A program made the position numbers and the translations under genes. The notes beneath the pieces are model-generated. The model was given only the letters and a program-made list of their open reading frames with translations, searched no databases and had not been told where the DNA came from. From contig PHAN01000019.1 of assembly GCA_002841695.1 (NCBI GenBank), forward strand, positions 1 through 32,458: a DNA stretch of 32,458 nucleotides, read 5' to 3'. Shown here in pieces: positions 1 to 32,458 of this stretch; the stretch's first letter is position 1; each line of letters opens with the position of its first letter. The stretch is from Elusimicrobia bacterium HGW-Elusimicrobia-1 (GTDB taxonomy: Bacteria; Elusimicrobiota; Endomicrobiia; PHAN01).

Positions 1-144
1 GAACACAAGTATTTATACAAAATAATTGTTACGAAGTTGTTACGAAGAGATAAGACGTGAATCGTGAAGGGTAAAGGGGGAAGGGTTAAAGGAAAACTAC
101 TCTTCACCCTTCACGATTTACGCTTCACGCTTCCCGCTTCACGT
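1..144. repeat. Left copy of window-bounding inverted repeat
   Basis: This stretch is nearly identical to the reverse complement of 32305-32447. The outer 46 bases match perfectly, a short stretch at 47-59 differs, and the rest matches except for one extra G and a rearranged run of the GAAGCGTGAAGC-type units. The outer part carries a tandem TTGTTACGAAG unit at about 27-48. The inner part is itself palindromic: AATCGTGAAGGGT near 60 pairs with its complement near 107-119. It lies just downstream of the permease stop and contains no gene. It is probably a dispersed intergenic repeat, and it may also be where a contig assembly broke. Confidence 0.85.
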
Positions 145-1428: not shown

Positions 1429-1613
1429 GAGTCAATTGAAAAACCATCTTTTCCCCCGCATGTCATTCCCGAATGTTTTTATCCCCGATAAAGACATTCG
1501 GGGACGAATCCATACTACGACGGAAACTCTGGATTCCCGCTGGATTCCGTGTCAAGCACGGAATGACAAGCGGGACGGGAATGACGCAACATAGGGTTTT
1601 TCAACGGCCTCAA
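1429..1613. repeat. MITE-like palindromic element between cusA and the permease
   Basis: This element of about 185 bp has inverted ends. GAGTCAATTGAAAAACC at the left mirrors GAGGCCGTTGAAAAACC read inward from the right. Its inner arms are GTCATTCC / GGAATGAC repeats with a GGATTCCCGC-type core. The ends match those of the elements at 13138 and 30282. The flanks share AATT, a possible short target duplication. The right terminus contributes the TGA stop of the cusA-like gene. No coding capacity is seen. Confidence 0.75.
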
Positions 1614-4720: not shown

Positions 4721-5959
4721 TTAATGTCTGTGCGCGGGCGGCGGAGCCGGCGCCTTATCTTTTGTCGACGGAGTTTTTGCCGGAGCCGCGGTTTCCTTTT
4801 TATCGCCTATTTCTTCGGCCGCGCCCCATTGCAGAGATTGTCCCCCGCCCATCGTGGACTGCGAATCGAGCATAAAATTGCCTTCCGTAACGATTTCTTC
4901 GCCTTCGGAAATGCCGGACTTCACGTGGATATATCCGCCCGATTCCGCGCCCGCGATGATTTCCCTTGCCGCATACGATGTCGGTGTTTCGCGCACGTAG
5001 ACGATTTTTCGTTTGCCGGTGTCTATGACCGCGCTCAGCGGCACCGTCAGAAGATTACCCGATGCGTACTCGATTTCGGCTTCGGCGTAAGTTTCGTGGG
5101 GCGGTGCGCCGTCGCCGCGCGCGCGCGCTTCTATTCTGGCTTTGGCGGTGCGTGTTTTGGAGTCGATATTGGATTCAACAAAGCGTACCGTCCCGTCGAA
5201 GGTCGATGATCCGCCGTGCGGAACTACGCGGACATTCATTCCGCGTTTTATCGAAGGTATATCGCTTTCAAAGACATCGGCTATGACCCATATTTTTTCG
5301 CCCGGATAAATCAACGTTTCGTCGGGTTCGCCCTGCTCGGCGAGTTTTTTCATATCGGTTTCGTCGTAACCGAGAAGCCGCAATTTGAGTTCGGACGCTT
5401 TTAGTGTTCTTGAAAGAATATTCCCGCGTCCGTCCGGAGAACCTCTGCCTGCGGCCAGATATTCCGCCTGGGCGGTATAAAGATCGTCGTCGTGGGCGAT
5501 TTTGGCGGGCAGTCGTATTGTGGTCGAAAGTTTTCGTCTCGACGCTTTGAGTGTCTTTATGCCCGCGGCTTTGGAGGTTTCTTCGGGAACGGTTATGCCG
5601 CCCGCCGGAGCCGCTTCCACCTTTATCAGAGTCATACCGCATATAGGGCAGTTGCCGGGGCCTGCCTGACGGACTGCCGGATGCATAGAACACGTCCATA
5701 CGGATTTCGCGTGGTTGTCCGCGCCGGTTTTCGCGGGAACTATCCGCTCTTGCGATTTTGCGGACGAAGTGTCGTCCTGATTGCTATGCTCCGCGCTCGC
5801 CACGGTAACTTTGTCGACCACAGCGGCGTCTTTTTGCGTCGCCGCGCTCGCAGAATGGCAGTGGTCGGCAATCGCCGAGGGACTCGTCGCAAGCAGCAAT
5901 GCCGCCGCTATAAGTGTCGTCGATACGGCGATTGGCGCGCGTGATATAATCGTATTCAT
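4721..5959 (-). CDS. cusB: CusB-type periplasmic adaptor with heavy-metal-binding domain
   Basis: This is a 412-residue membrane-fusion protein linking the RND pump to the TolC-like channel. A signal peptide (about residues 10-32) is followed by a low-complexity stretch containing DHCHS. A heavy-metal-binding domain lies near residues 88-114 (WTCSMHP then CPICGM). The barrel-sandwich/alpha-hairpin core follows (EYLAAGR near the hairpin, YPGEKIWVIADVFESD). The C-terminus ends in Pro/Ala then HRH, a possible extra metal-binding tail. The start codon lies inside the upstream gene's end (ATGA overlap) and is preceded by GGAGG, indicating translational coupling with the channel gene. It probably collects periplasmic Cu/Ag and hands it to the pump. 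Confidence 0.92.
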   Translation of the reverse strand: MNTIISRAPIAVSTTLIAAALLLATSPSAIADHCHSASAATQKDAAVVDKVTVASAEHSNQDDTSSAKSQERIVPAKTGADNHAKSVWTCSMHPAVRQAGPGNCPICGMTLIKVEAAPAGGITVPEETSKAAGIKTLKASRRKLSTTIRLPAKIAHDDDLYTAQAEYLAAGRGSPDGRGNILSRTLKASELKLRLLGYDETDMKKLAEQGEPDETLIYPGEKIWVIADVFESDIPSIKRGMNVRVVPHGGSSTFDGTVRFVESNIDSKTRTAKARIEARARGDGAPPHETYAEAEIEYASGNLLTVPLSAVIDTGKRKIVYVRETPTSYAAREIIAGAESGGYIHVKSGISEGEEIVTEGNFMLDSQSTMGGGQSLQWGAAEEIGDKKETAAPAKTPSTKDKAPAPPPAHRH

Positions 5960-7242
5960 TGATGGCCTCCGTGACCTTGCGGGAGTTTTCCCGTTATGAC
6001 TTCAAGTTCCGCAAGGTTTTTATGATATGCGGATACCGCTTCTGCCAGCGATATCTTTTGGGCGATAAGATTTCTCTGCGTTTCTATCAAGTCGGTAAAA
6101 CCGGCTCGTCCGGCGATGTAATCGGCGCGGATTATTTCAAGCGCCTGCTCGGCGGCCGGCAGTATCGCCGTTTTGAAATTATTTACCGCCCGCGACAGAT
6201 ATACTATTCTGTGGTACAATGCCAGCGCCGAGGATTCGGCTTCAAGCAGGGCGGATTCAATATTGTTGATGGACTCGTTTTCGCTTTGCCCGGCGGATTT
6301 TACCGTCGCGGATTGTTTCGGTAACCAGAGCGGCAACTCTGCCGCCAGCATAAGGCGGGTTTCGTCCCGTGTGTCATCCATGCGGTCGATTTTGGCGCCA
6401 ACACGTATGTCGGGTATCCACGAAAGTGTCTCAAATTTTCTGCGCTCCTCTGCCGCTCTGCCGAGTTCGGACATTCTTGCCGCGTTTGCGGAATTTGCCC
6501 GCGCCGCTTCCGCGACCCGCGCGGAGTTTATTGACGGAGGAGCGATCCCGATATCGACGGAAACATCGGGCGGCGGCAGTAAGGCGTCGCCGTTTGAGCC
6601 CCTGAGCGCGTTTATTTCGGCGGCAATTTTCGCCGCTTCGGCGTCAAGACGCAAGATCTCGTTTTCTTCCATCGCCATTTCCAAGGCGGCGCGGACAAAA
6701 TCGGCTTTGGATTTTTTTCCGGAGATATAACGGGCTTCGGCGGTTGTCGCCAGAGATTCGAGCAGTTGCAGATTTTCTTTCCGTTTTTCCATCGATGTAA
6801 GCGCGAAATAATAATCCCAATACGCTTTTTTGGCCATGGAGACGACAACGCGGGTCGTCTCGTCGAGCGCCGCGGCGCCTGCCCGCGCGCGCGCTTTCGC
6901 TTCCGCGCGGCCGACCAGGAGCTTGTTGGGCGGCATGGGTATTGTCTGCTCCGCGCCGAACATAGTCGCTTTCGCGGAGTCCGACGGCGCGATTTTTTCT
7001 TCGTAAAAAATCATCGGCTGACGCGGCCATGACGCCGCGGAAGCATCGGCTGCGGCGGTTTCGTAACCGGCCCGCGCGGCTTTTATTTGCGGATTGTTTT
7101 TAAGGACATCGGTCGCGAGATTGTCGGGCGTGAGAGTTTTTGGGCGTATGCCGGTTTCCGCGGCCAACCTTGCGGTAGTTGTCGTAAAAAACAGAACGGC
7201 GGATATAAATACTTTAATCTTGCGGTAAGTTGTATTTATCAT
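5956..7242 (-). CDS. cusC: TolC/CusC-like outer-membrane efflux channel
   Basis: This 428-residue outer-membrane factor belongs to the TolC family. It has a signal peptide (about 1-28) and a long alpha-helical body made of two repeats rich in Ala, Glu and Arg. Recognisable family segments are NNPQIKAARAGYE near 50-62 and ADYIAGRAGFTDLIETQRN near 370-390. The last residues are His-rich (GHGGH), which may bind metal. The start overlaps the stop of the small DUF4190-like gene (ATGA), and its own stop overlaps the adaptor start the same way. The three pump genes therefore form one translationally coupled unit in the order C-B-A. The subfamily assignment (CusC) rests mainly on its neighbours. Confidence 0.9.
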   Translation of the reverse strand: MINTTYRKIKVFISAVLFFTTTTARLAAETGIRPKTLTPDNLATDVLKNNPQIKAARAGYETAAADASAASWPRQPMIFYEEKIAPSDSAKATMFGAEQTIPMPPNKLLVGRAEAKARARAGAAALDETTRVVVSMAKKAYWDYYFALTSMEKRKENLQLLESLATTAEARYISGKKSKADFVRAALEMAMEENEILRLDAEAAKIAAEINALRGSNGDALLPPPDVSVDIGIAPPSINSARVAEAARANSANAARMSELGRAAEERRKFETLSWIPDIRVGAKIDRMDDTRDETRLMLAAELPLWLPKQSATVKSAGQSENESINNIESALLEAESSALALYHRIVYLSRAVNNFKTAILPAAEQALEIIRADYIAGRAGFTDLIETQRNLIAQKISLAEAVSAYHKNLAELEVITGKLPQGHGGHQ

Positions 7243-7499
7243 TTTAAGCCCTTGAAAAAACCGACGATTTCATGACTTTTAAAGAAAAACAGAAGACCTA
7301 CGGTTATGATATACGCGGCGCCAAGAATTATGCCTGACATGGCCGCCCCCCGACCTGTTTTTGCCGCGTCTTTTTTGAGCTCGTTGAGAGCGAGTATGCC
7401 GAAAATTCCCGCCGCGAGTGCTTTTTCAATGCCGAATATCTGGATGAAACTAAGCGCTCCGAGCGTCAAGCTGACGATGGCATATTTGGATTTTTTCAT
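7239..7499 (-). CDS. Small two-to-three-TM membrane protein, DUF4190-like
   Basis: This 86-residue protein has two to three hydrophobic segments: about 7-23, about 28-40 and 53-72. The pattern (an IVSLTLGALSF segment, a GIFGILALNELK turn, then GRGAAMSGIILG) is the usual layout of DUF4190-type proteins, whose function is unknown. The start is supported by GAGGAAAA just upstream. The gene overlaps the channel gene by ATGA, so it is made together with the efflux pump. It could be an accessory membrane factor of the pump, but nothing in the sequence proves that. Confidence 0.7.
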   Translation of the reverse strand: MKKSKYAIVSLTLGALSFIQIFGIEKALAAGIFGILALNELKKDAAKTGRGAAMSGIILGAAYIITVGLLFFFKSHEIVGFFKGLK

Positions 7500-8779: not shown

Positions 8780-9861
8780 TTTTTCATCGTCTCCGAATAT
8801 TTTATTATCCTGTCCATCATTCTGACTGCCTCGGCGGGATATTTGCCGACGGCCGTCTCGCCGGAAAGCATCACGTAGTCCGCGCCGTCGAGTATGGCGT
8901 TGGCCACGTCCGAAACTTCGGCCCGCGTGGGCAGGGGGGAATTGGTCATACTCTCAAGCATTTGAGTGGCCACTATTGAAAATTTGCCCGCCGCGCGGCA
9001 TTTCTTTATTATTGATTTTTGAATGAAAGGCACTTCCCATACCGGCACGGATACGCCCAGATCGCCCCTTGCCACCATTATTCCGTCGGACGCTTTTATT
9101 ATCGAGGCGATATTGCGTATGCCTTCGCGGTTTTCGATTTTTGCTATGACGCCGGGCGCCTTTGTTCCGGACGCTGTGGCAATAGTTTCGGCGGCTCGCC
9201 GGATTTTACCGACCTGACCGGCGTCGGTTACAAAAGATTGGGCTATGAAATCCGCCCCGCGGCCGACGGCCCACCGGATTGCGGCGGCGTCTTTTTCCGA
9301 CAGTCCGCGAAAGCGCAGCCGCGCGTCTGGAATGTTTACGCCTTTTCTGGAGCGAAGGATTCCGCCGTCGACTACGACCGTCGTCACGGCGCGGCGGAAA
9401 GTTCTTGTCGCGCGCAGCATTATGCTGCCGTCGTCTATAAAAATTCCGTGGCCGGACTTGACGGCTCTCAGGTCGCCTTTGTAATCGAAATATACGATTT
9501 TTTTTGACGCGGAAAGATTTTGTTTCGACGGAACGTTCGTCAGAACGAGTGTTTGTCCCCGTCGCAGCGGCAGTTCGCCCGATGCGCCGAGTTGCCCCAT
9601 TCTTATTCTGGGGCCTTCCATATCCGCGATGACTTTTACCGCCCGCCGGCGTTTGCGGTTGAGTTCGCGCACAAGCGTCAGCCGCCTCGTGTGGTCTTCG
9701 GCGGAGCCGTGTGAAAAGTTGAATCTTGCGGCGTCGAGCCCCGCCTCGGTCATTTTTCTTAAACCCGCCGCTGTTTCCGACGACGGGCCAATGGTCGCTA
9801 TAATTTTTGCGCGCGCCGCGGAACGTTTTCCGCGCGGCGATGCGAATCGCGGCATAATCAT
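8776..9861 (-). CDS. pyk: Pyruvate kinase, catalytic core only (no C-terminal domain)
   Basis: This enzyme converts phosphoenolpyruvate and ADP to pyruvate and ATP. Clear signatures are [11 protein letters not shown] and ARFNFSHGS near the N-terminus, the B domain (about 90-170), KIENREGI carrying the catalytic Lys, [17 protein letters not shown] and [16 protein letters not shown]. At 361 residues it stops right after the TIM barrel ([14 protein letters not shown]), whereas typical enzymes continue another 100 or so residues into the C domain that forms the allosteric site. The end is not a visible frameshift, since the stop overlaps the sigma gene's GTG. The ATG overlaps the dtxR stop (ATGA). 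It is therefore probably a genuine short form, likely insensitive to the classical sugar-phosphate effectors. Confidence 0.92.
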
Positions 9862-10559
9862 CTCCTTGCAAAAATCATTTTACCGACTTCTTCTTCCAGA
9901 GCCAGCGTGGTAGCCCCGATGTTCAATACCAGCGACGGGGATTTCTGGTGAATTTTAACTACCGCGCCCGGCGCAAGTCCCAGCGACAGCAGTTTATGAA
10001 GCAGCGCGTGGTCTTTGGTATATATGTAGGATATTCTGGCTTCGTCGCCTGCGCCCAGACGGTCAAGCGTGGTTATTATCGGTCTGGCCTCCGAGGTTTG
10101 AAGTTTGCAGCATTTGCCCGCGGGTATGGGCGAGCCGTGCGGACAAAGCCGCGGATGTCCCAGAAGGGTGCAGACGGATTCTTCCACGTCGTCGGACATT
10201 ATGTGTTCGAACTCACAGGCCGACAGATGCATGGCTCCGCCGTGAATCTCCAAAACGTCGTGGAGCAGGCGTTCCGCCAGACGGTGCAGGCGTATTATTC
10301 GCGACGCCCGCTTGCGGCCCGACTCCGTGAAATCGATTTTTCCGTTGGTTTCGATAATCAGGTTTTCCGTTTTCAGGCGCTTTATTATGTCGTCGGTGTC
10401 GTCGGGCAGAGGCCTTCCGTGTCTGCGTATCCGTCCGTACTCCTGTGTCTGGCCGTCCTGCGAGAGAATCTTTTTTATTTCGGCGGCATCGGCGTTGCCT
10501 TTTTCTATTTCGGACCATATAACGGCCAAAGCTTCCTGTACGTCGCGCAAAGTAATCAT
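9858..10559 (-). CDS. DtxR/MntR-family metalloregulator with C-terminal FeoA-like domain
   Basis: This 233-residue predicted metal-dependent repressor has a winged-helix region at about residues 1-75. The metal-binding/dimerisation domain at about 80-150 contains [12 protein letters not shown] and CPHGSPIP, both typical of this family. An SH3-like FeoA domain occupies about 160-233 ([11 protein letters not shown]). No separate feoA is seen beside feoB. It starts 20 bp after feoB with GGGAGAT upstream, and its stop overlaps the pyk ATG. It probably represses iron (or manganese) uptake, including its own operon. The co-regulating ion cannot be told from sequence alone. Confidence 0.88.
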
Positions 10560-13137: not shown

Positions 13138-13326
13138 GAAACCGTTGAAAAACCCCGCTATTTGTCATTCTGAGTCCTTCGGCGGTTGTCATTCTGAGCG
13201 TAGCGAAGAATCTCCGTCGCCTCAGGATGAACTCCGCGAAGAATCTCGTTTTCCGACGACCACCCTTCGGGTGGAGACCCTTCGCTTCGCTCAGGGTGAC
13301 ATTTTGACGACTTTTTCAATGGTCTC
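13138..13326. repeat. 189-bp MITE-like element with terminal inverted repeats and ATAAT duplication
   Basis: The ends are GAAACCGTTGAAAAA at the left and the reverse complement of GAGACCATTGAAAAA at the right. Flanking ATAAT occurs on both sides (13133-13137 and 13327-13331). The inside carries GTCATTCTGAG / CTCAGGGTGAC-type units, including a 27-bp stretch (13188-13214) that is a perfect inverted copy of 30439-30465. It contains no gene and no transposase. Confidence 0.8.
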
Positions 13327-20425: not shown

Positions 20426-21853
20426 ATGAACGAATACGAAGATAAGCCGGATAACACGGGACTCGAAGACAAAGCGGTTTCGGATTCATGGGACTGGGTT
20501 TCTGCCGAACTCAGAAAACTGGAAGACGAACTCTCGCCGGATTCCGAAATGCTTGAAGTGGTCGATGCCATATCCGTGGCCGATTTCTGGAAGCGTCGTT
20601 ACGACGAAGAAAGCACGCTTTGGGAACGGAAGCTTCAGATTAAAGAAGAGGAAAAATCCAACCTCAAAGAAAAGACGCAGTCGCACGGAATCGCCCTCAA
20701 AGAACTTGAATGGAAATTAAAGGAACTCGACAGACGGTGGCAGCAGGAAAAAATCGTACTTGAGGACCGCCTCAAATCGAAAGAAACGGAAGCCGAGCTC
20801 CAAAAAATAAAATTACAGTGGGAAATGCGGCTTGCCGCTCTCGAAGAAGAAAACAAACATCTTAAATCCAATATGTCGGCCGCATCGGGGGCGCCGATGC
20901 AACCGTCCGACGCCGGCTCGACGGTCGGCTCGTTTTACCCGTCTTCCGCGGGTTCCGGCGTAGCCGAGGCCAAAGTCAGGGAACTCGAAGAGAGATTGCG
21001 TCAGGCCGAGGAAGAATACCGCAAATCGTTAAAAAAACTCGATGAAGAAAAAGAGACGGTAAAACGTCAGCTTGACGGCAAGGAAGACACATTCCGTCAG
21101 GAAAAGGCGGCGTGGGAAACCCTCGAAAAAGAGGTCTCCCAGTTGAACCGTCAGATGATAGACCGTCTGAAACTTTTAAGGGAAAGAGAGCAGGATCACT
21201 TTACGGTGCTTGAAGACCTCGCCCGGGGTTTCGCTCACAGGGTGCGCAATTATCTGGGCATAATTTCGGGCACCATACAGCTTTGCGTGGCCAATTATAA
21301 GATGGACGAGGAATTGAAAGGTCAGCTTGTCATAGTCGACCAGAACGTGGCCGATATGCTCAAATCCATAGAAGAATTTCTCGCTCTGGCGCGGATACCG
21401 CAGATGTCGTTCGTTAAAATGTCCATCGCTTCCGTCGCAGATAAAGCGTTGTCCGTCGCGGCGGATAAATTCAAAGCCGTCGGCATTTCCGTGGAAAAAA
21501 ACTTTGCCGATGTGCCGGAAATAGATATCGACGAAAAACTGATGTCGGAAGCGTTGGGGCATCTTTTTTCAAATGCCGCGGAAGCGATGTCCGGCGGCGG
21601 CAATCTTACGGTTTCATTAAGTTACGAGAACGCCAAATCGCTCATAACGTTAAAAATCGCAGACACCGGCGCGGGCGTTTCCGAAGCCCACTTAAAGAAA
21701 ATATTCCAGCCGTATTTCACCACCAAGAAAAACCGCAAAGGCCTGGGATTAACGTCGGCCAAACGAATAGTCGACCTCCATGGCGCGACTCTCGCCCTTG
21801 AAAGCGTCAAAGGCAAGGGAACCGTCGTCAGCATAGTTTTTCTCGTCAAATGA
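20426..21853 (+). CDS. Soluble sensor histidine kinase with N-terminal coiled coil
   Basis: This 475-residue cytoplasmic kinase has no membrane segment. Residues 60-250 are heptad-rich coiled coil, interrupted by a Ser/Gly-rich patch near 150-180. The dimerisation/phosphoacceptor helix holds FAHRVRNYLG with His271. The ATPase domain has SNAAEAM (N box, about 380), DTGAGVSE (G1, about 413), FQPYFTTK (F box) and GLGLTSAKRIVDLHG (G2, about 440). The residue after the phosphoacceptor His is Arg rather than the usual Glu/Asp, and the NPL that normally follows is NYL. There is no response regulator nearby, so it is an orphan. Its stop overlaps the next gene (ATGA). The signal it senses is unknown. 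Confidence 0.87.
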   Translation: MNEYEDKPDNTGLEDKAVSDSWDWVSAELRKLEDELSPDSEMLEVVDAISVADFWKRRYDEESTLWERKLQIKEEEKSNLKEKTQSHGIALKELEWKLKELDRRWQQEKIVLEDRLKSKETEAELQKIKLQWEMRLAALEEENKHLKSNMSAASGAPMQPSDAGSTVGSFYPSSAGSGVAEAKVRELEERLRQAEEEYRKSLKKLDEEKETVKRQLDGKEDTFRQEKAAWETLEKEVSQLNRQMIDRLKLLREREQDHFTVLEDLARGFAHRVRNYLGIISGTIQLCVANYKMDEELKGQLVIVDQNVADMLKSIEEFLALARIPQMSFVKMSIASVADKALSVAADKFKAVGISVEKNFADVPEIDIDEKLMSEALGHLFSNAAEAMSGGGNLTVSLSYENAKSLITLKIADTGAGVSEAHLKKIFQPYFTTKKNRKGLGLTSAKRIVDLHGATLALESVKGKGTVVSIVFLVK

Positions 21854-24690: not shown

Positions 24691-26325
24691 GTGTGGAAAC
24701 GCGTAAACTTCTCTCTTGCCGTCATTGTTCCTGCGGCGCTTGTACTGCTGCTCTTGTCCCCCCGTCCGCTTTTTTCTAAAAATCGCGCGTTATTTATCTA
24801 CGAAGGCGGTGCCTCTCACGACGCTGCTCTGCTCGAATTTTCCCGCCAGAAATATATTTCATTCAACGACCTTGCCCGAATATATCATCTGTCGCTTTCT
24901 TTCCGGCCCGTCTCGGGTAAAGTGAGTTTAAGCGCGTACAACCGGCGCGCGGATTTTATAATAAATTCCGACCGCTACAGCTTATCCGGTGTGTCCAAAC
25001 GGATGCGTCTTCCCGTGCGGCTTTCGCGCGGCATGGCGTACATCAGCGTCGATTTTCTTTCGTCCGATGCCTTTGCCGATTTTACGGAGACGGAAACTCT
25101 CAGTTATCCGGATACGGGCACCTATGTGGTGTCCGTAAGGCACAATGTGCTGCCGGCCAGATTTCACTCGCGGTCCGACGGCACCAAAATATTAATAGGC
25201 ACAAAAGACGGCGCGGCGCTTTCGGCCAATAAACTCTCCGCCGGCCGCCTTACTCTTGAATATTCCAGGGGAAGAGTTATAGAAGAGTCCGTGTCCGTGG
25301 ATGACGGAATGGTCAGAGAGATCCGCCATTCCAATAAGGGGCGCACGGCGTTCGTGGAGATATTTTTGAGTGAAAATGCCTCGGCTCCCGCGGTGACAGT
25401 TTCCGACGACGGCACGACCGTAGTTTTCGTTCCCCGCTCGATGATGGCTCCCGCTGCGGCGGTGATGAGCGCCCTTGCGGAAGAGACATCATCGTCTACC
25501 GACCCCGCCGTCTCGCCTTCGCCCGAACTAACCGCTTTTTTGGTATCGACCGCCGTCACCGCCGCCGCGTCCGCTCCGGTTGCGGTCAAAGCCCGTCCGA
25601 CCGTCTCATTAAGACCGGCTACGCCCACCATAGGGAAGCCCAAAACCAGAATTGTGCTCGATGCCGGACACGGCGGAGAAGACCCGGGCGCCGTAGGATC
25701 CAACGGCACACTTGAGAAAGACGTCAATCTGGCCATAGTGCTGGAACTTCAGCGGCTTTTTGCCGACGACGAAAATATCGAAATAATACTGACCCGCTTC
25801 GACGACACATTTATTCCTCTGGTCGACAGAACCACTCTGGCCAACGAAAAAACCGCCGACCTTTTCATATCGGTGCATTGTAACGCCTCGATGAAGCGCA
25901 GCGGCGGCGGCTACGAGGTTTATTTTCTCTCGGAAACGGCCTCCGATATGGAGGCGATGGCCACGCAGATTTTGGAAAACTCCGTCGTCGAACTCGAAAA
26001 AAAGAAAGACAGGAAACGAACCAAGATTCAAGAACTCCTGTGGTCTATGATAGTCAACGAATTTATCAACGAGTCGTCCGAACTCTGCTATCTGACAACC
26101 ATAGAAATACCCAGAAGAATCAAAGTCGAAAACAGGGGCGTCAAACAGGCCGGTTTTTACGTTTTGCGCGGAGCGCAGATGCCGGCTATACTGGTTGAGT
26201 GCGCTTTTTTATCGAACCCTGTCGAAGAGACAAAGCTTCGCAATCCAGCATACCAAAAGCGCATCGCCGACGGACTTTACGTGTCGGTGAAACAATATCT
26301 TAAACGCAAGGGCGGAGCCGAGTAA
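24691..26325 (+). CDS. N-acetylmuramoyl-L-alanine amidase (Amidase_3)
   Basis: This secreted zinc amidase cleaves the amide bond between MurNAc and the stem peptide. The 544 residues begin at a GTG (the only reasonable start) with a signal peptide (about 1-29). An N-terminal domain similar to copper-amine-oxidase-N/AMIN-like wall-binding modules spans about 35-260, followed by an Ala/Ser/Pro/Thr linker (about 265-310). The catalytic domain (about 318-544) has zinc ligands H327 (DAGHGG), E342 (LEKDVN) and H396 (SVHCNA), and catalytic E503 (LVECAFLSN). It is followed 32 bp later by murI, another wall gene. It probably acts in cell separation or wall turnover. Confidence 0.92.
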   Translation: MWKRVNFSLAVIVPAALVLLLLSPRPLFSKNRALFIYEGGASHDAALLEFSRQKYISFNDLARIYHLSLSFRPVSGKVSLSAYNRRADFIINSDRYSLSGVSKRMRLPVRLSRGMAYISVDFLSSDAFADFTETETLSYPDTGTYVVSVRHNVLPARFHSRSDGTKILIGTKDGAALSANKLSAGRLTLEYSRGRVIEESVSVDDGMVREIRHSNKGRTAFVEIFLSENASAPAVTVSDDGTTVVFVPRSMMAPAAAVMSALAEETSSSTDPAVSPSPELTAFLVSTAVTAAASAPVAVKARPTVSLRPATPTIGKPKTRIVLDAGHGGEDPGAVGSNGTLEKDVNLAIVLELQRLFADDENIEIILTRFDDTFIPLVDRTTLANEKTADLFISVHCNASMKRSGGGYEVYFLSETASDMEAMATQILENSVVELEKKKDRKRTKIQELLWSMIVNEFINESSELCYLTTIEIPRRIKVENRGVKQAGFYVLRGAQMPAILVECAFLSNPVEETKLRNPAYQKRIADGLYVSVKQYLKRKGGAE

Positions 26326-26357
26326 ACGAAACCGCGCCCTGCGACGAGGATTTTTAT

Positions 26358-27179
26358 ATGGATTCAAGACCTTTGGGAGTTTTTGATTCGGGAGTCGGCG
26401 GATTGACGGTAGCAAGAGAAATAATGCGACGCTTTCCGCGCGAAAGCATAGTTTATTTCGGCGACACCGCGCGGGTTCCCTACGGAACAAAATCGGCCGA
26501 GACCATAAGGCGTTACTCCGCGCAGATAGCCGATTTTCTGTTGTCAAAAAAAGTCAAGGCCATAGTCGTCGCCTGCAACACCGCCTCCGCGCTGGCTCTT
26601 CGAGCGCTGCGGTTAAAGTACAAGCTCCCGATAATCGGCGTCATAGAACCCGCCTGCCGTCTGGCCGTGTCCGGCTCTCGTCGTGGAAGGATAGGCGTTA
26701 TAGGCACGGAGGCCACCGTGCGAAGCGGGGCATATCCGTCGGCCATAAAAAAGATTTCCTCTCGCGCCGCGGTGACGGCCATGGCTTGCCCGCTTCTTGT
26801 TCCGCTGGCCGAAGAGGGACGTTTGAGCGGAAGCATTACGGAAGCAATTCTTAAAGATTATCTCAAGGGAATGACGGGCGGACGACTCGACACTCTGATA
26901 CTGGGGTGCACCCACTATCCGCTTTTGGCCCCCGCGATTAAAAAAGTCGCGGGAAAAAATATTAAAGTTGTCGATTCGGCCCGAGCCGTGGTTTCGGAAC
27001 TCGGGAAAATTCTGTCTTCCGGCGGACTCGCCGCCTCGCCCGCAGGAAAACATCCGCCGCACCGTTTTTACGTCAGCGATTCTCCCGACCGTTTTGCGAA
27101 AATGGGAAAAAGGTTTCTCCGCGCGCGTTTCAACGCTTCGGTGACAAAAGTGAATCTTAAGGAGGCGGACAGTGTATAA
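26358..27179 (+). CDS. murI: Glutamate racemase
   Basis: This enzyme interconverts L- and D-glutamate, supplying D-Glu for peptidoglycan. The 273-residue protein has all signature motifs: FDSGVGGLTV near 9-18, GDTARVPYGTK, the first catalytic cysteine C73 in ACNTAS and the second, C184, in GCTHYPLL. It lies between the amidase and queD. Its end overlaps the queD start by 8 bp, and the queD ribosome site lies inside the murI coding region, so the two are co-expressed. Confidence 0.96.
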   Translation: MDSRPLGVFDSGVGGLTVAREIMRRFPRESIVYFGDTARVPYGTKSAETIRRYSAQIADFLLSKKVKAIVVACNTASALALRALRLKYKLPIIGVIEPACRLAVSGSRRGRIGVIGTEATVRSGAYPSAIKKISSRAAVTAMACPLLVPLAEEGRLSGSITEAILKDYLKGMTGGRLDTLILGCTHYPLLAPAIKKVAGKNIKVVDSARAVVSELGKILSSGGLAASPAGKHPPHRFYVSDSPDRFAKMGKRFLRARFNASVTKVNLKEADSV

Positions 27180-27552
27180 AATATCCGTCGAGGACTCGTT
27201 TTCCGCCGCTCACCGTCTGCGCGGCTACAAGGGAAAATGCGAAAAAATGCACGGGCACAACTGGCGCGTCCGTCTGAGTGTGTCAGGGACAGAACTTGAT
27301 TCCAAAGGTCTGCTGCTCGATTTTTCCGGACTCAAAAAGATGCTCGGAAATATTCTCGCGGCACTCGACCACGAAGACCTGTCCCGCGTTCCGCCGTTTA
27401 ACAAAATAAATCCATCCGCGGAAAACATAGCCCGCCATATTTTTGACAGAGCCGCTTCGGCTCTCCCGTCAAAAAAATATCCGGGGCTGCGTATCGAGAC
27501 GGTGTCCGTATGGGAATCCGATAAAAGCCGCGCGGATTACAGCGCCGGATAA
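27172..27552 (+). CDS. queD: 6-carboxytetrahydropterin synthase QueD
   Basis: This enzyme converts dihydroneopterin triphosphate to 6-carboxy-tetrahydropterin, the second step toward preQ0/queuosine. The 126 residues include the zinc histidines in FSAAHRL (about 11-17) and MHGHNW, the catalytic Cys in GKCEKMHGH, and the later LDHEDL, NPSAEN and VWESD. The start is a GTG with AAGGAGG six bases upstream, overlapping the murI end. QueC and QueE follow, giving the last three preQ0 steps in one run. FolE for step one is not in the window. Confidence 0.95.
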   Translation: MYKISVEDSFSAAHRLRGYKGKCEKMHGHNWRVRLSVSGTELDSKGLLLDFSGLKKMLGNILAALDHEDLSRVPPFNKINPSAENIARHIFDRAASALPSKKYPGLRIETVSVWESDKSRADYSAG

Positions 27553-27583
27553 TCAGGGCAAAAATATTGAAAGCGGGCAAACT

Positions 27584-28267
27584 TTGAAAAAAAGAAAAGC
27601 CATTGTGCTTCTGTCGGGGGGGCTCGACTCGGCCACTTGTCTTTATCACGCGCTTCGACGGGGATATGACGTCGCCTGTCTCGCGTTTGATTACGGACAG
27701 CGGCACCGCCGCGAAATATCGTGTTCCCGTCGGATTGCACGCCTCAACGGGCTGAAGTTGTCGGTCGTCAAAACGGCTTTTCCGTGGAATCGCAGTTCCC
27801 TTGTGTCGGGCGGCCCGGCTGTAGCCGACGCCGTTGGCGGGATTTCGAGGATACCGTCCACATACGTTCCCGGGCGCAACACGGTTTTTCTTGCGGCTGC
27901 GCTTTCTTTCGCCGAGTCAACCGGCGCGGAGCGTATTTTCATCGGAGCCAATGCCGTGGATTTTTCGGGATACCCCGATTGTCGGCCCGCTTATTACGCG
28001 GCGTGGAACCGACTTCTGGCTTCTCTTGGCACAAAAATAAAAATCGAAACTCCGCTTCTGCGACTGAAAAAATCAGGGATCATAAAAATGGGCGTTCGGA
28101 TGGGCGTTCCATACGAGTTAACTTGGTCGTGTTATCGCGGACTGTCGAGGCCTTGCGGCAAATGTGATTCCTGCGCGATCCGCTCCCGCGGTTTTGCCGA
28201 GGCGGGTTTCAAAGACCCCGCTGTCGGATCTCGTGAGAGGCAATCTAAGAAAAATGCAAAAAAATAA
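27584..28267 (+). CDS. queC: 7-cyano-7-deazaguanine synthase QueC
   Basis: This ATP-dependent enzyme turns 7-carboxy-7-deazaguanine into preQ0 (7-cyano-7-deazaguanine). The 227 residues begin with the PP-loop [10 protein letters not shown]. The zinc site is C183, C191, C194 and C197 ([15 protein letters not shown]), with spacing like known Que[16 protein letters not shown] and [15 protein letters not shown] are also typical. I chose the TTG at 27584 because the family begins just before the PP-loop. The frame stays open back to 27443, but that part overlaps queD and is not conserved-looking. The ribosome site is weak. Confidence 0.92.
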
Positions 28268-29018
28268 ACCGTCCGGCGCGACGGCTGTTTCGCCGCGCTC
28301 GAAAAATCCCGACATCACGGCCCCCGTCAACGAAGTGTTCTTTTCTTTTCAGGGCGAAGGCCTTCGCGCCGGCGAGCCGCAGATATTCGTTCGCTTCGCC
28401 GGATGCAATCTCCGATGCCGGTACTGCGATACGCCGTCGGCCCGACATCTTTCCGCCGGAAAAAAAACCGCCGTCGCGGCGCTTGTCCGCAAAATAGCGA
28501 AAATCGCGAGCTCCGCGCGTCCCCGTCCCCGCACAATTTCTCTGACGGGAGGAGAGCCGCTGCTGTATCCGGATTTCGTCGCCGCGCTCATCGGCGAACT
28601 CAGGAAGCGCAAGTTTAGAGTTTCTCTTGAAACGAACGCCTCTCTGCCCGGAGCGTTTGAAAAACTCGTCCGTCTTGCCGACTATATTTCCGCCGATGTC
28701 AAACCGCCTTCGGCCGCGGGTAAAGACCTGTTTGCCGTTTACGCGAAAGCGTTTCCGGCGGCCGCCGGCAAACTTTCGGTTAAGTTGGTTCTCGACGATA
28801 AAACCCGCCTTTCCGAAGTTCTGACGACCGCCCGCCTGATTAAAAAATTCGCGCCTGCGGCCGGCCTTACACTTCAACCCGCCACGCCTTCGCGCAATGC
28901 CGGCACGGTCGCGCCCGCGAATTTATTCCGGTTTGTCCGCTCCGCCGAAAGTATTCTGGGCGTTCGCCGCGCGGGAATCATTCCCCAACTGCACAAACTT
29001 CTCTGGAAGGTAAGATAA
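28254..29018 (+). CDS. queE: 7-carboxy-7-deazaguanine synthase QueE (radical SAM)
   Basis: This radical-SAM enzyme rearranges 6-carboxytetrahydropterin to 7-carboxy-7-deazaguanine. The 254 residues include VFFSFQGEG near 25-33, the cluster motif C51-x3-C55-x2-C58 (CNLRCRYC), [13 protein letters not shown] for SAM binding, and SLETNAS. The start at 28254 overlaps the end of queC by 14 bp. A longer frame back to 28164 lies wholly inside queC and is unlikely to be used. The next gene begins 2 bp after the stop. Confidence 0.93.
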
Positions 29019-29020
29019 AT

Positions 29021-30313
29021 ATGGCGACAGTTGCGCCTTTCTGCGGCATAAGATACAAATCCAACAATCTCTCGCGGCTCATCTGCCCGCCTTATGATAT
29101 CGTATCCGCCGCGCGCAAAAGGGAACTCCTGGCGCATTCCAAAGATAATTTTATATCGGTGGAACTTCCAATGCCGTTCCCGTCTTCGCCCTCGCAAAAA
29201 ATAAAAAATCTTCCCGGATCATCGCGCGCGCCTTACATCGCGGCCGCCCGCGTTTTCAAAAATATGCTCTCAGGAAATATCCTCGCCCGCGATCCCGATT
29301 CGTACTACGTTTATACCCAGAAGTTCGGCGTCGGGTCAAAAAAATTTCGCAGAGACGGCCTTATGGCGGCCGTGCGCCTTGAAGATCCGCGCCGCGGAGA
29401 TATTTATCCTCACGAAAAAATACTCCCCAAGGCCATCCGCGACCGCGAGTTATTGCTTGATGCCGCGCAAGCGGCGACCAGTCCCGTTTTTTTTCTTGTC
29501 GCGTCCGAAGATTTCGGATCATTTATGAAAAAAATCAGGAACCGTTCGCGGCTTGTTTCGCGCGCCGTCCTCGACGGCGTAACGCATGAACTCTCCATCC
29601 TCAACCCTCCTGCGGATTTTGTGGCCGAATATTTTCGCGCAAAGCGGCTCTACATAGCCGACGGCCACCACCGTTACGACGTTGCCCTCAGACATTCCCG
29701 CCGAAGCCGCAATCCGTCCGCCGGATACACACTGGGATTTATCGCAGGTGCCTTCGAGCGCGGTGTCGTCGTCCTGCCCACGCACAGAATCGCGCCGGTT
29801 CCGGTCGATATAATGTCGAGAATCCGGAGTTTTGATTTAATTTCCGCCGCACAATTCAATCGCCTTGCGCGATTGGCCTCCTGTGGCCGCCGCCCTCAGC
29901 CGCTTAAAATTCGTTTCCGTCGACGCACTATGTGCTTAGCCCTGAAAAACGCGCGTGCAATAAAAGGAAAGTCGGACGCGCCGCGTTCGCTGGCATTTAT
30001 GGCGTCGGCTGTTGCCTCCACAACACTGCTTGCGGGCATCGCTCCCGACCAAATGAGATACACCAGTTCGGAACGCGAAGCCGTCCGGGCCGCCGACAAA
30101 GAAAATAAACTTGCCGTCATATTCCCGCCTCCGCCTATGAAATCCATTATAGATGTGTCGAATCATAAGTCATATATGCCTCAAAAATCAACCTACTTCT
30201 ATCCTAAGGCATACGCGGGACTTGTAATATATCCTTTTGATAAAAATCGGGTCGATGCCCACATCTCGCTCAAAATTCAGACAATTGAAAAAGTGTCCAA
30301 AATGTCACCCTGA
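29021..30313 (+). CDS. DUF1015 family protein, C-terminus altered by repeat insertion
   Basis: This 430-residue cytoplasmic protein of the DUF1015 family has the typical N-terminus (LICPPYDIVS near 20-29) and the conserved YIADGHHRYDVAL near 210-222. I do not assign a molecular function. It is downstream of queE by 2 bp. The last ten residues (after SLKIQ) come from a dispersed repeat, which also supplies the stop TGA. Joining SLKIQ directly to the right-hand copy of the 13-bp direct repeat gives KNK and a TGA overlapping the next gene's ATG, the likely original end. The protein is probably intact apart from that tail. Confidence 0.88.
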   Translation: MATVAPFCGIRYKSNNLSRLICPPYDIVSAARKRELLAHSKDNFISVELPMPFPSSPSQKIKNLPGSSRAPYIAAARVFKNMLSGNILARDPDSYYVYTQKFGVGSKKFRRDGLMAAVRLEDPRRGDIYPHEKILPKAIRDRELLLDAAQAATSPVFFLVASEDFGSFMKKIRNRSRLVSRAVLDGVTHELSILNPPADFVAEYFRAKRLYIADGHHRYDVALRHSRRSRNPSAGYTLGFIAGAFERGVVVLPTHRIAPVPVDIMSRIRSFDLISAAQFNRLARLASCGRRPQPLKIRFRRRTMCLALKNARAIKGKSDAPRSLAFMASAVASTTLLAGIAPDQMRYTSSEREAVRAADKENKLAVIFPPPPMKSIIDVSNHKSYMPQKSTYFYPKAYAGLVIYPFDKNRVDAHISLKIQTIEKVSKMSP

Positions 30314-30493
30314 ACCCTTCGCCTTTGTCACCCTGAGTGAAACGAAGGGTCTCGCTTTGGCTCAGGGCATGCTCCGTGAAGGGTCTATCTTGTCGTCGAA
30401 AGACGGGATTCCTCGCGGAGTTTATCCTGAGGCATTATGAGATTCTTCGCTACGCTCAGAATGACGCCGCCGAAGGACCCAGAATGACGCCGC
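30282..30493. repeat. MITE-like element inserted in the 3' end of the DUF1015 gene
   Basis: The element begins near CAATTGAAAAAGTG and its left 45 or so bases match the inverted right end of the element at 13138-13326. Bases 30439-30465 are a perfect inverted copy of 13188-13214. CTCAAAATTCAGA is present on both sides (30269-30281 and 30494-30506), as expected for a target duplication. Internal units are the GTCACCCTGAG/CTCAGAATGAC type. It has no gene of its own. Confidence 0.85.
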
Positions 30494-30513
30494 CTCAAAA
30501 TTCAGAAAAACAA

Positions 30514-30945
30514 ATGACAACATACAGCATTGCGCTTATCGCCTTTATCGCCCTGGCCGGATTCATCGGCTGGCGTTTCGGAGCTATCAGAATAGCGCTC
30601 ATCGCCGCCGCTCCGCTTGCCGCCGGAGCCCTTGTTCCGCTGGTTCGCGTTTGGGTTATATTAAAAATAAGTTTTTTCGACGCCAACCCGCAATTTGTTT
30701 CCGCCGCTTCGTGGATTTTCTCGCTTGCTCTTATATATCTTGTCGCCGCCATCGTCACAAAAATTGCCGATGCCCTTATGATAGGTTTGATAAACAGAGC
30801 GCTCGGCGCGGCGATATTTGCCGCCGCCGCTTTATGGCTGGCGCCTGTCGTGTCTCGTTATATTTCGTGTCCTCCCGATAAAATAGGCAAGGCGCTCTAC
30901 CCCTCGCGTATCCTTGAAACTGCGGATGTATTCGATAAAAAATAA
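30514..30945 (+). CDS. CvpA-like small membrane protein
   Basis: This 143-residue protein has four hydrophobic segments (about 5-22, 26-48, 64-85 and 95-115). It carries the CvpA-family turn GLINRALGAAIFAAAALW near 90-107. CvpA proteins are poorly understood inner-membrane proteins linked to envelope stress and colicin V export. I chose the ATG at 30514 because upstream in-frame sequence to 30337 is repeat DNA. This ATG would have overlapped the ancestral DUF1015 stop (ATGA). Family assignment is from pattern only; a generic membrane protein is the alternative. Confidence 0.62.
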   Translation: MTTYSIALIAFIALAGFIGWRFGAIRIALIAAAPLAAGALVPLVRVWVILKISFFDANPQFVSAASWIFSLALIYLVAAIVTKIADALMIGLINRALGAAIFAAAALWLAPVVSRYISCPPDKIGKALYPSRILETADVFDKK

Positions 30946-32317
30946 AAAAATATTTTACGCGACGCGGAATATCGCGTGGTCCGACCCCGCCGATTTTTTC
31001 AACGCGTTGCCGGCGGCGTCCTGCTCGTTTTTCATCGACAACGCCGGCGAGTCCGCCGGAGGAACCGTCTCGTACGTATCCGTCGGCGAACCGCTCGAAA
31101 AAATAATAATCCCCTCCCCGTCCGATTCTTCGTGCGGACTATTTTTCAAATATCTCGACAAACTCAAAAATATTGTTCCGCCGTCCGGGCCGCCGTTTCC
31201 GTTTTCCGGCGGTATGGCCGGATATTTATCGTACGAATGCCTCGTTTTTTTTGAGGACATAAAACTCCGCGCCAAGCCCGCGGCCTCGGCTCCCCTTGCC
31301 GCGTTGATGGCCCCCCGCGCCTTCGCGGCCTTCGACGCGTTTTCCCGTCGGGCTTCCCTGTTTTGCGCCGGCGCCACCCCCGCCGCCGCGCTGAAAAATC
31401 TCGCAAAAATCAATCTGCCACCCGCCCGCAAATCCGGGACGCTCCTTAATACACCGGCCGCCCCGTCGACGTCTTTGCCTGATTTCACGCCGACATCCTT
31501 CGCGCGCGCCGTGCGCGCGGTTAAAAATTACATTTCCTTCGGCGACATCTTTCAGGCCAACATCGCGCGCCGCTGGCGGATGTCCCTGCCGCCCTCGGCC
31601 GACGGGCGGGCGATGTTCCTGACGCTCCGGCGCATTAATCCGTCGCCCTACGCCTGCTATCTTAAGTTCGGCCCGACCGAAATAATATCCTGCTCCCCCG
31701 AACTTTTGGTCCGCGTTCGCGGCCGCATCGTCGAAACCCGACCCATCGCAGGCACGCGGCCCCGCGGCTCCACACCTGCGGCTGACCATCGTCTATCCGT
31801 CGCCCTGCTGGGCAGCCCCAAAGAACGCGCCGAGCACATAATGCTTGTGGATCTTGAACGCAACGACCTCGGCCGCGTCTGTCTGCCGTCGACGATTTGC
31901 GTCGACGAAAAAATGTCGCTGGAATGGTATTCCCACGTCACCCACATCGTTTCCAATGTTCGCGGAAAACTCAAAAAAAACATTTCGCGCCGCGATATCC
32001 TTCGCGCAATGTTTCCCGGCGGCACCATAACCGGCTGCCCGAAAATCAGATCAATGCAAATCATCGACGAAGTCGAGCCCGTCTCCCGCGGCCCGTACTG
32101 CGGCTCCGCCGGATGGTTTTCTCCGACGGGCGATATGGAACTTAACATATTGATAAGAACAATAATAAAGACCCCGCGCCTCGCCGAATTTTACGCCGGC
32201 GCCGGCATCGTCGCCGACTCAAATCCCCTGCGCGAATACCGCGAAACATCTCACAAAGCCCGCGCTCTCGCCGAAGCGCTCGGCGTTAAACTATTGGATA
32301 AAGGACGTGAAGCGTGA
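30926..32317 (+). CDS. pabB: Chorismate-utilising enzyme, PabB/TrpE component I
   Basis: This 463-residue enzyme aminates chorismate using ammonia from a glutaminase partner. The N-terminal domain has GGMAGYLSYE, typical of PabB. The C-terminal catalytic part has FGDIFQANIARRW, ETRPIAGTRPRG, HIMLVDLERNDLGRV, FPGGTITGCPKIRSM and GAGIVADSNPLREY. PIAGT is found in both anthranilate synthases and many PabBs, so the product (4-amino-4-deoxychorismate or anthranilate) is not settled; GYLSYE favours PabB. The start could also be a TTG at 30914. It overlaps the CvpA-like gene. The last codons (CGT GAA GCG TGA) lie in the window-bounding repeat. No glutaminase or lyase gene is visible here. Confidence 0.85.
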   Translation: MYSIKNKKIFYATRNIAWSDPADFFNALPAASCSFFIDNAGESAGGTVSYVSVGEPLEKIIIPSPSDSSCGLFFKYLDKLKNIVPPSGPPFPFSGGMAGYLSYECLVFFEDIKLRAKPAASAPLAALMAPRAFAAFDAFSRRASLFCAGATPAAALKNLAKINLPPARKSGTLLNTPAAPSTSLPDFTPTSFARAVRAVKNYISFGDIFQANIARRWRMSLPPSADGRAMFLTLRRINPSPYACYLKFGPTEIISCSPELLVRVRGRIVETRPIAGTRPRGSTPAADHRLSVALLGSPKERAEHIMLVDLERNDLGRVCLPSTICVDEKMSLEWYSHVTHIVSNVRGKLKKNISRRDILRAMFPGGTITGCPKIRSMQIIDEVEPVSRGPYCGSAGWFSPTGDMELNILIRTIIKTPRLAEFYAGAGIVADSNPLREYRETSHKARALAEALGVKLLDKGREA

Positions 32318-32447
32318 AGCGGGAAGCGTAAATCGTGAAGGGTGAAGAGTAGTTTTCCTTTAACCCTTCCCCTTTACCCTTCACGATTTACGTTTTTTCT
32401 TTTCGTAACAACTTCGTAACAATTATTTTGTATAAATACTTGTGTTC
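32305..32447. repeat. Right copy of window-bounding inverted repeat
   Basis: This is the reverse complement of 1-144 with the differences described there. It also folds on itself (AATCGTGAAGGGT near 32331-32343 with its complement near 32378-32390). It overlaps the pabB-like stop. Only 11 bases of unrelated sequence follow it in the window. Confidence 0.85.
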
Positions 32448-32458
32448 GGACTCATCGG

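Follow-up and report, generated by a model that had tools for sequence, protein, structure and literature searches.

The window analysed here, a stretch of 32,458 nucleotides spanning contig PHAN01000019.1 of Elusimicrobia bacterium HGW-Elusimicrobia-1, contains a locus in which QueD-like, QueC, radical SAM (queE-like), DUF1015, CvpA-like and chorismate-binding/pabB-like genes follow one another. The DUF1015 gene (29021..30313, + strand) encodes 430 aa with a match to PF06245; downstream lies a gene for a CvpA-like membrane protein (30514..30945, +; 143 aa), which gave no Pfam match and owes its name to an earlier sequence-only reading and to its position. Separating the two genes is an insert bounded by exact copies of the 13-bp direct repeat CTCAAAATTCAGA (30269..30281 and 30494..30506, both +), as the sequence-only reading had reported. 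That a single insert should carry identical 13-mers at its two junctions goes far beyond what chance would give (~4^-13 times a few hundred placements). The copies are spaced 225 bp start to start, or 75 codons, and since 225 is a multiple of three, the insert leaves the reading frame unchanged. The element itself (30278..30497, +) forms a strong hairpin (-92 kcal/mol, z -6.8) and retains only a left terminal repeat, CAGACAATTGAAAAAG (consensus GAGNCNNTTGAAAAAG), the tip of which is off consensus; the right terminal repeat (..GGGGTTTTTCAATTGACTC) is missing. An Rfam search of positions 26000-32458 returned nothing relevant, and a terminator scan of 30200-30600 found no terminator.

Searching the 2.06-Mb genome with the insert yielded 67 BLAST matches. 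Complete copies start with GAGNCNNTTGAAAAA and finish with its reverse complement, and the terminal-repeat pattern, allowing one mismatch, was found 149 times versus 33 in a reversed control. Directly outside most complete copies lie 5-bp direct repeats, mostly AAATT, AATTT, ATAAT or AAGTT (~20 copies, counted in the stretches read around copies). With a copy length of ~110-290 bp, below 500 bp, many copies and no transposase gene, and with inverted repeats at both ends and a fixed 5-bp duplication, the family matches the definition of a MITE, save that no autonomous partner was found; the window copy departs from it in having the left end only and a 13-bp repeat that includes AAATT. Also identified in the window was a full copy at 13138..13326 (-), with an ATAAT duplication on both sides (L070, 239-427). 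Two copies in the only same-genus relative found, G001 (L062 and L110), share the ends and duplications, as do copies in G024, a genome of a different family within the class, with 79 occurrences of the exact pattern versus 3 in the control. A literature search for the GTCATTGCGAG repeat, or for MITEs in Elusimicrobia/Endomicrobium, returned nothing on this family. It is well defined and clade-specific, new in itself but of a type already known. Together with an element-free junction in the same-genus relative, these terminal repeats and target duplications uphold the earlier proposal that a dispersed element was inserted at this locus.

At least three different palindromic cores occur between these ends. 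In a further full copy in the window (1429..1611, +), whose inner core is different, and in L088, L095, L100, L101 and L112-L122, the GAG...CTC ends and their 5-bp duplications surround differing palindromes (GTCACCCTGA.., GTCATTCCCG.. and GTCATTGCGAG..), as if one mobile frame may have captured several repeat types. A related element type with ends GCTCCTGAAAAAG/CTTTTTCAGGAGC was observed in L009 (433-679) and L081 (370-632), duplicating 10 bp (GCTAACTAAT) and 5 bp (TAATT), respectively. At its two ends (window 1-130 and 32310-32458) the contig carries a single repeat (CTTCACGATTTACG...) in inverted orientation, which probably explains why the assembly broke there.

The transposase families looked for as possible partners were PF01609 and PF01526. 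PF01609 was absent from the genome, and none of the stretches read held a long element between paired ends; widely spaced pairs such as L087 and L113 gave no transposon. Tn3 transposons generate 5-bp AT-rich duplications and have ends beginning GGGG, unlike the GAG with which the ends of the present family begin. Tn3-derived inverted-repeat miniature elements (TIMEs) resemble this family in being short, non-autonomous and equipped with terminal repeats (PMC4133298). The Tn3 DDE domain (PF01526) is absent from 40 genomes of the class, which speaks against assignment to the TIMEs.

Upon closer inspection, the 13-bp direct repeat is centred on AAATT (30273-30277 on the left, 30498-30502 on the right), which the register of other copies marks as the likely 5-bp target duplication. 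The sequence-only reading had taken the 13 bp, or about 9-13 bp, as the duplication, a view at odds with the 5 bp found in ~20 copies of the family; the 13 bp instead consist of AAATT flanked to left and right by four bases that happen to match. On the left, the element's tip reads CAGA (normally GAGN), identical to the four bases after the right AAATT; CTCA, the tetranucleotide just ahead of the right AAATT, also precedes the left one. The same pattern was seen at one end only in 2 of 24 other copies (5+4 or 5+5), namely L016, with AATTT then AAGGC on both sides, and L013, with AATTT/AGTTT then GTGA on both sides; some 0.2 such ends would be expected by chance among 48, in a comparison made after the pattern had been seen, with the register set partly by eye and with small numbers. 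These matches suggest that terminal-repeat tips may have been replaced by target sequence. A speculative extension, to which we give little credence, is that the family's transposition or repair reaction can swap the four outermost bases of a terminal repeat, at one end or at both, for target DNA, yielding direct repeats of 5, 9 or 13 bp, with the window copy changed at both ends (AAATT+4+4) and L013 and L016 at one; for the right end of the window copy, the plain alternative is an internal deletion that spared the element's last CTC. It is also conceivable, if improbable, that the 13 bp represent a true target duplication, made when an already truncated element entered by other means, for instance through a different transposase or during repair. 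The exactness and length of the repeat and the absence of the right terminal repeat would fit such an event, but the repeat is centred on the family's commonest 5-bp target, the left terminal repeat lines up with those of normal copies, and the one-ended pattern of L013 and L016 also argues against it.

Translation of the DUF1015 gene places its stop (TGA, 30311-30313) inside the insert, so that the protein closes with SLKIQ-TIEKVSKMSP. Residues 407-420 (DKNRVDAHISLKIQ) lie past the usual C-terminus of the family, and residues 421-430 (TIEKVSKMSP) are encoded by the MITE copy, as the sequence-only reading had recognised. Other long frames that enter element copies (L017, L018 and L027) end in a like peptide; the tail is the element's end read in frame, its standard reading in that frame. 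A search of the genome found no second copy of 30212-30281, and the DKNRVDAHISLKIQ stretch, being single copy, is therefore not itself part of the repeat. No similar tail was found among the C-termini of 30 relatives. In all 30 the stop falls at the conserved C-terminus or no more than about five codons later, upstream of the position of the element, the conserved stop lying ~14 codons before it. At the corresponding position in the window (30232..30242, +; CCTTTTGATAA), a TGA and a TAA are present one base out of frame. The window gene has lost the stop that its relatives share, and the data fit a loss either before or after the insertion. Had the stop been lost before, an allele coupled to the cvpA-like gene may have existed; had it been lost after, such coupling would never have been present.

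Comparison within the genus was made with a single genome, G001 (62% protein identity), a family-level search for more having returned this genome only. At the junction examined, L059, which has the same junction sequence as L030 of G001, no element lies between DUF1015 and cvpA, and the start of the window cvpA-like gene aligns with that of its counterpart. Alignment of the L059 spacer to the joined window site scored 39, compared with an average of 22 for shuffled sequences (p = 0.005); removals of 209-226 bp scored up to 42, so that the exact excision is not singled out. This element-free, weakly aligned spacer supports an insertion. The L059 DUF1015 protein ends in YPH, where relatives stop, and the cvpA ATG follows 59 nt after that stop. 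Past the stop its frame is open for 20 codons (L059, 4231-4293), up to the TGA of an ATGA that lies in frame where cvpA begins; this may be a relic or chance.

When the window flanks are joined without the insert, the DUF1015 frame reads ...HISLKIQKNK and terminates at a TGA (30515-30517) that overlaps the cvpA ATG (30514) as ATGA, exactly as the sequence-only reading had described. Its observation that this overlap is used elsewhere is likewise borne out by four ORF stops within the window (20426-21853 on the + strand; 5956-7242, 7239-7499 and 9858-10559 on the - strand). Today the cvpA start is ~200 nt away from the DUF1015 stop, with a stable hairpin in between, and coupling by overlap is consequently absent.

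From the joined sequence, the sequence-only reading concluded that the element had entered an ATGA-coupled DUF1015-cvpA pair ending in SLKIQKNK, uncoupled it and exchanged three residues for ten. In its favour are the in-frame TGA overlapping the ATG, the overlapping DUF1015-cvpA junctions of other families of the class (L033, L034, L037, L039, L041, L045, L053 and L058, others having a short gap), and the open frame beyond the L059 stop, which also reaches an in-frame ATGA. Against it, the sole same-genus relative is element-free yet stops at the conserved place and has a 59-nt spacer; no ATGA-coupled, element-free allele was found in this one genome; all 30 relatives stop before the element's position; and none has a tail like DKNRVDAHISLKIQ. 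By a simple reckoning, moreover, an open spacer with an in-frame ATGA would arise by chance with a probability of roughly 0.1-0.15. An ATGA-coupled ancestor is thus something we infer from the joined sequence, and we regard a broken coupling as possible but doubtful. Somewhat better favoured is that the element entered an ordinary non-coding spacer past the conserved stop, and that a small indel later removed the stop, so that the DUF1015 frame now continues into the element, with no coupling ever lost. The conservation of the stop position in the 30 relatives and the two stop codons one base out of frame at that very place point this way, and the same route has been described for Coxiella enhC, in which an indel joined the gene to a downstream MITE (PMC5896051). 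On the other hand, the data do not record in what order these events took place, and a spacer frame open as far as an in-frame ATGA would have to be a coincidence.

Taken together, we consider it very probable that a MITE with GAG...CTC ends inserted at AAATT between the DUF1015 and cvpA-like genes, later lost its right terminal repeat, and now supplies the DUF1015 end. A non-autonomous transposon of this kind would have been mobilised most likely by a DDE-type transposase whose gene lies elsewhere or has since disappeared, which the anatomy of the family suggests because that chemistry yields fixed-length duplications. The element would have entered the short intergenic region and then lost its right terminal repeat; the DUF1015 frame, missing its conserved upstream stop, runs 14 codons past the stop of its relatives and 10 codons into the element, to the element's TGA. 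The data show the family with its terminal repeats and 5-bp duplications, the element-free relative and the tail, while the type of transposase, the sequence of stop loss and insertion, and any effect on expression are inferred. Counting against this explanation are the missing right terminal repeat, a direct repeat of 13 rather than 5 bp, the alignment with the relative, in which removals of 209-226 bp do as well or slightly better, and the failure to find an autonomous partner in the searches for PF01609 in the genome and the Tn3 DDE domain in the 40 genomes.

Comparable elements are known elsewhere. In Coxiella burnetii, QMITE1 and QMITE2 are short repeats with terminal inverted and direct repeats in ~50 copies, some of which complete a gene by providing its last codons and its stop, as for EnhC of the Dugway strain, which gains 33 residues in this way (PMC5896051). 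The window family likewise has terminal inverted and direct repeats and provides a gene end, but differs in sequence and in its 5-bp duplications, compared with direct repeats of 2-3 nt for QMITE1 and 7-11 nt for QMITE2. The Chunjie MITE of Geobacter uraniireducens, situated within an operon, is 178-235 bp long, with conserved terminal and direct repeats and dozens of copies (PMC10969869), and is similar in operon insertion, size, repeats and copy number, a likeness drawn from its published description. Rickettsia palindromic elements and ERIC, Yersinia and other repeats are likewise small and palindromic and contribute in-frame peptides to genes (PMC10969869, PMC2229807); those of Rickettsia mostly insert inside frames, whereas the window MITE extends a gene end and carries the stop. 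As MITE-supplied protein ends are already documented in Coxiella and Rickettsia, the locus changes no general view, and offers a clear but ordinary case, in an uncultured Endomicrobiia lineage, of a gene end altered by a small transposon. The family, defined by its ends, target preference and copies in two families of Endomicrobiia, can account for many of the repeats in these genomes and for some of their contig breaks.

At the DUF1015-cvpA junction of another family of the class (L036, from G026), we also observed a GTCATTCCCGAATG...GGGAATCC repeat, apparently an independent insertion. In the window, the cvpA frame is open upstream through the element to a GTG at 30337 (30337-30513), and gene callers may report a 202-aa product including 59 element-encoded residues; the relative favours the 143-aa start.
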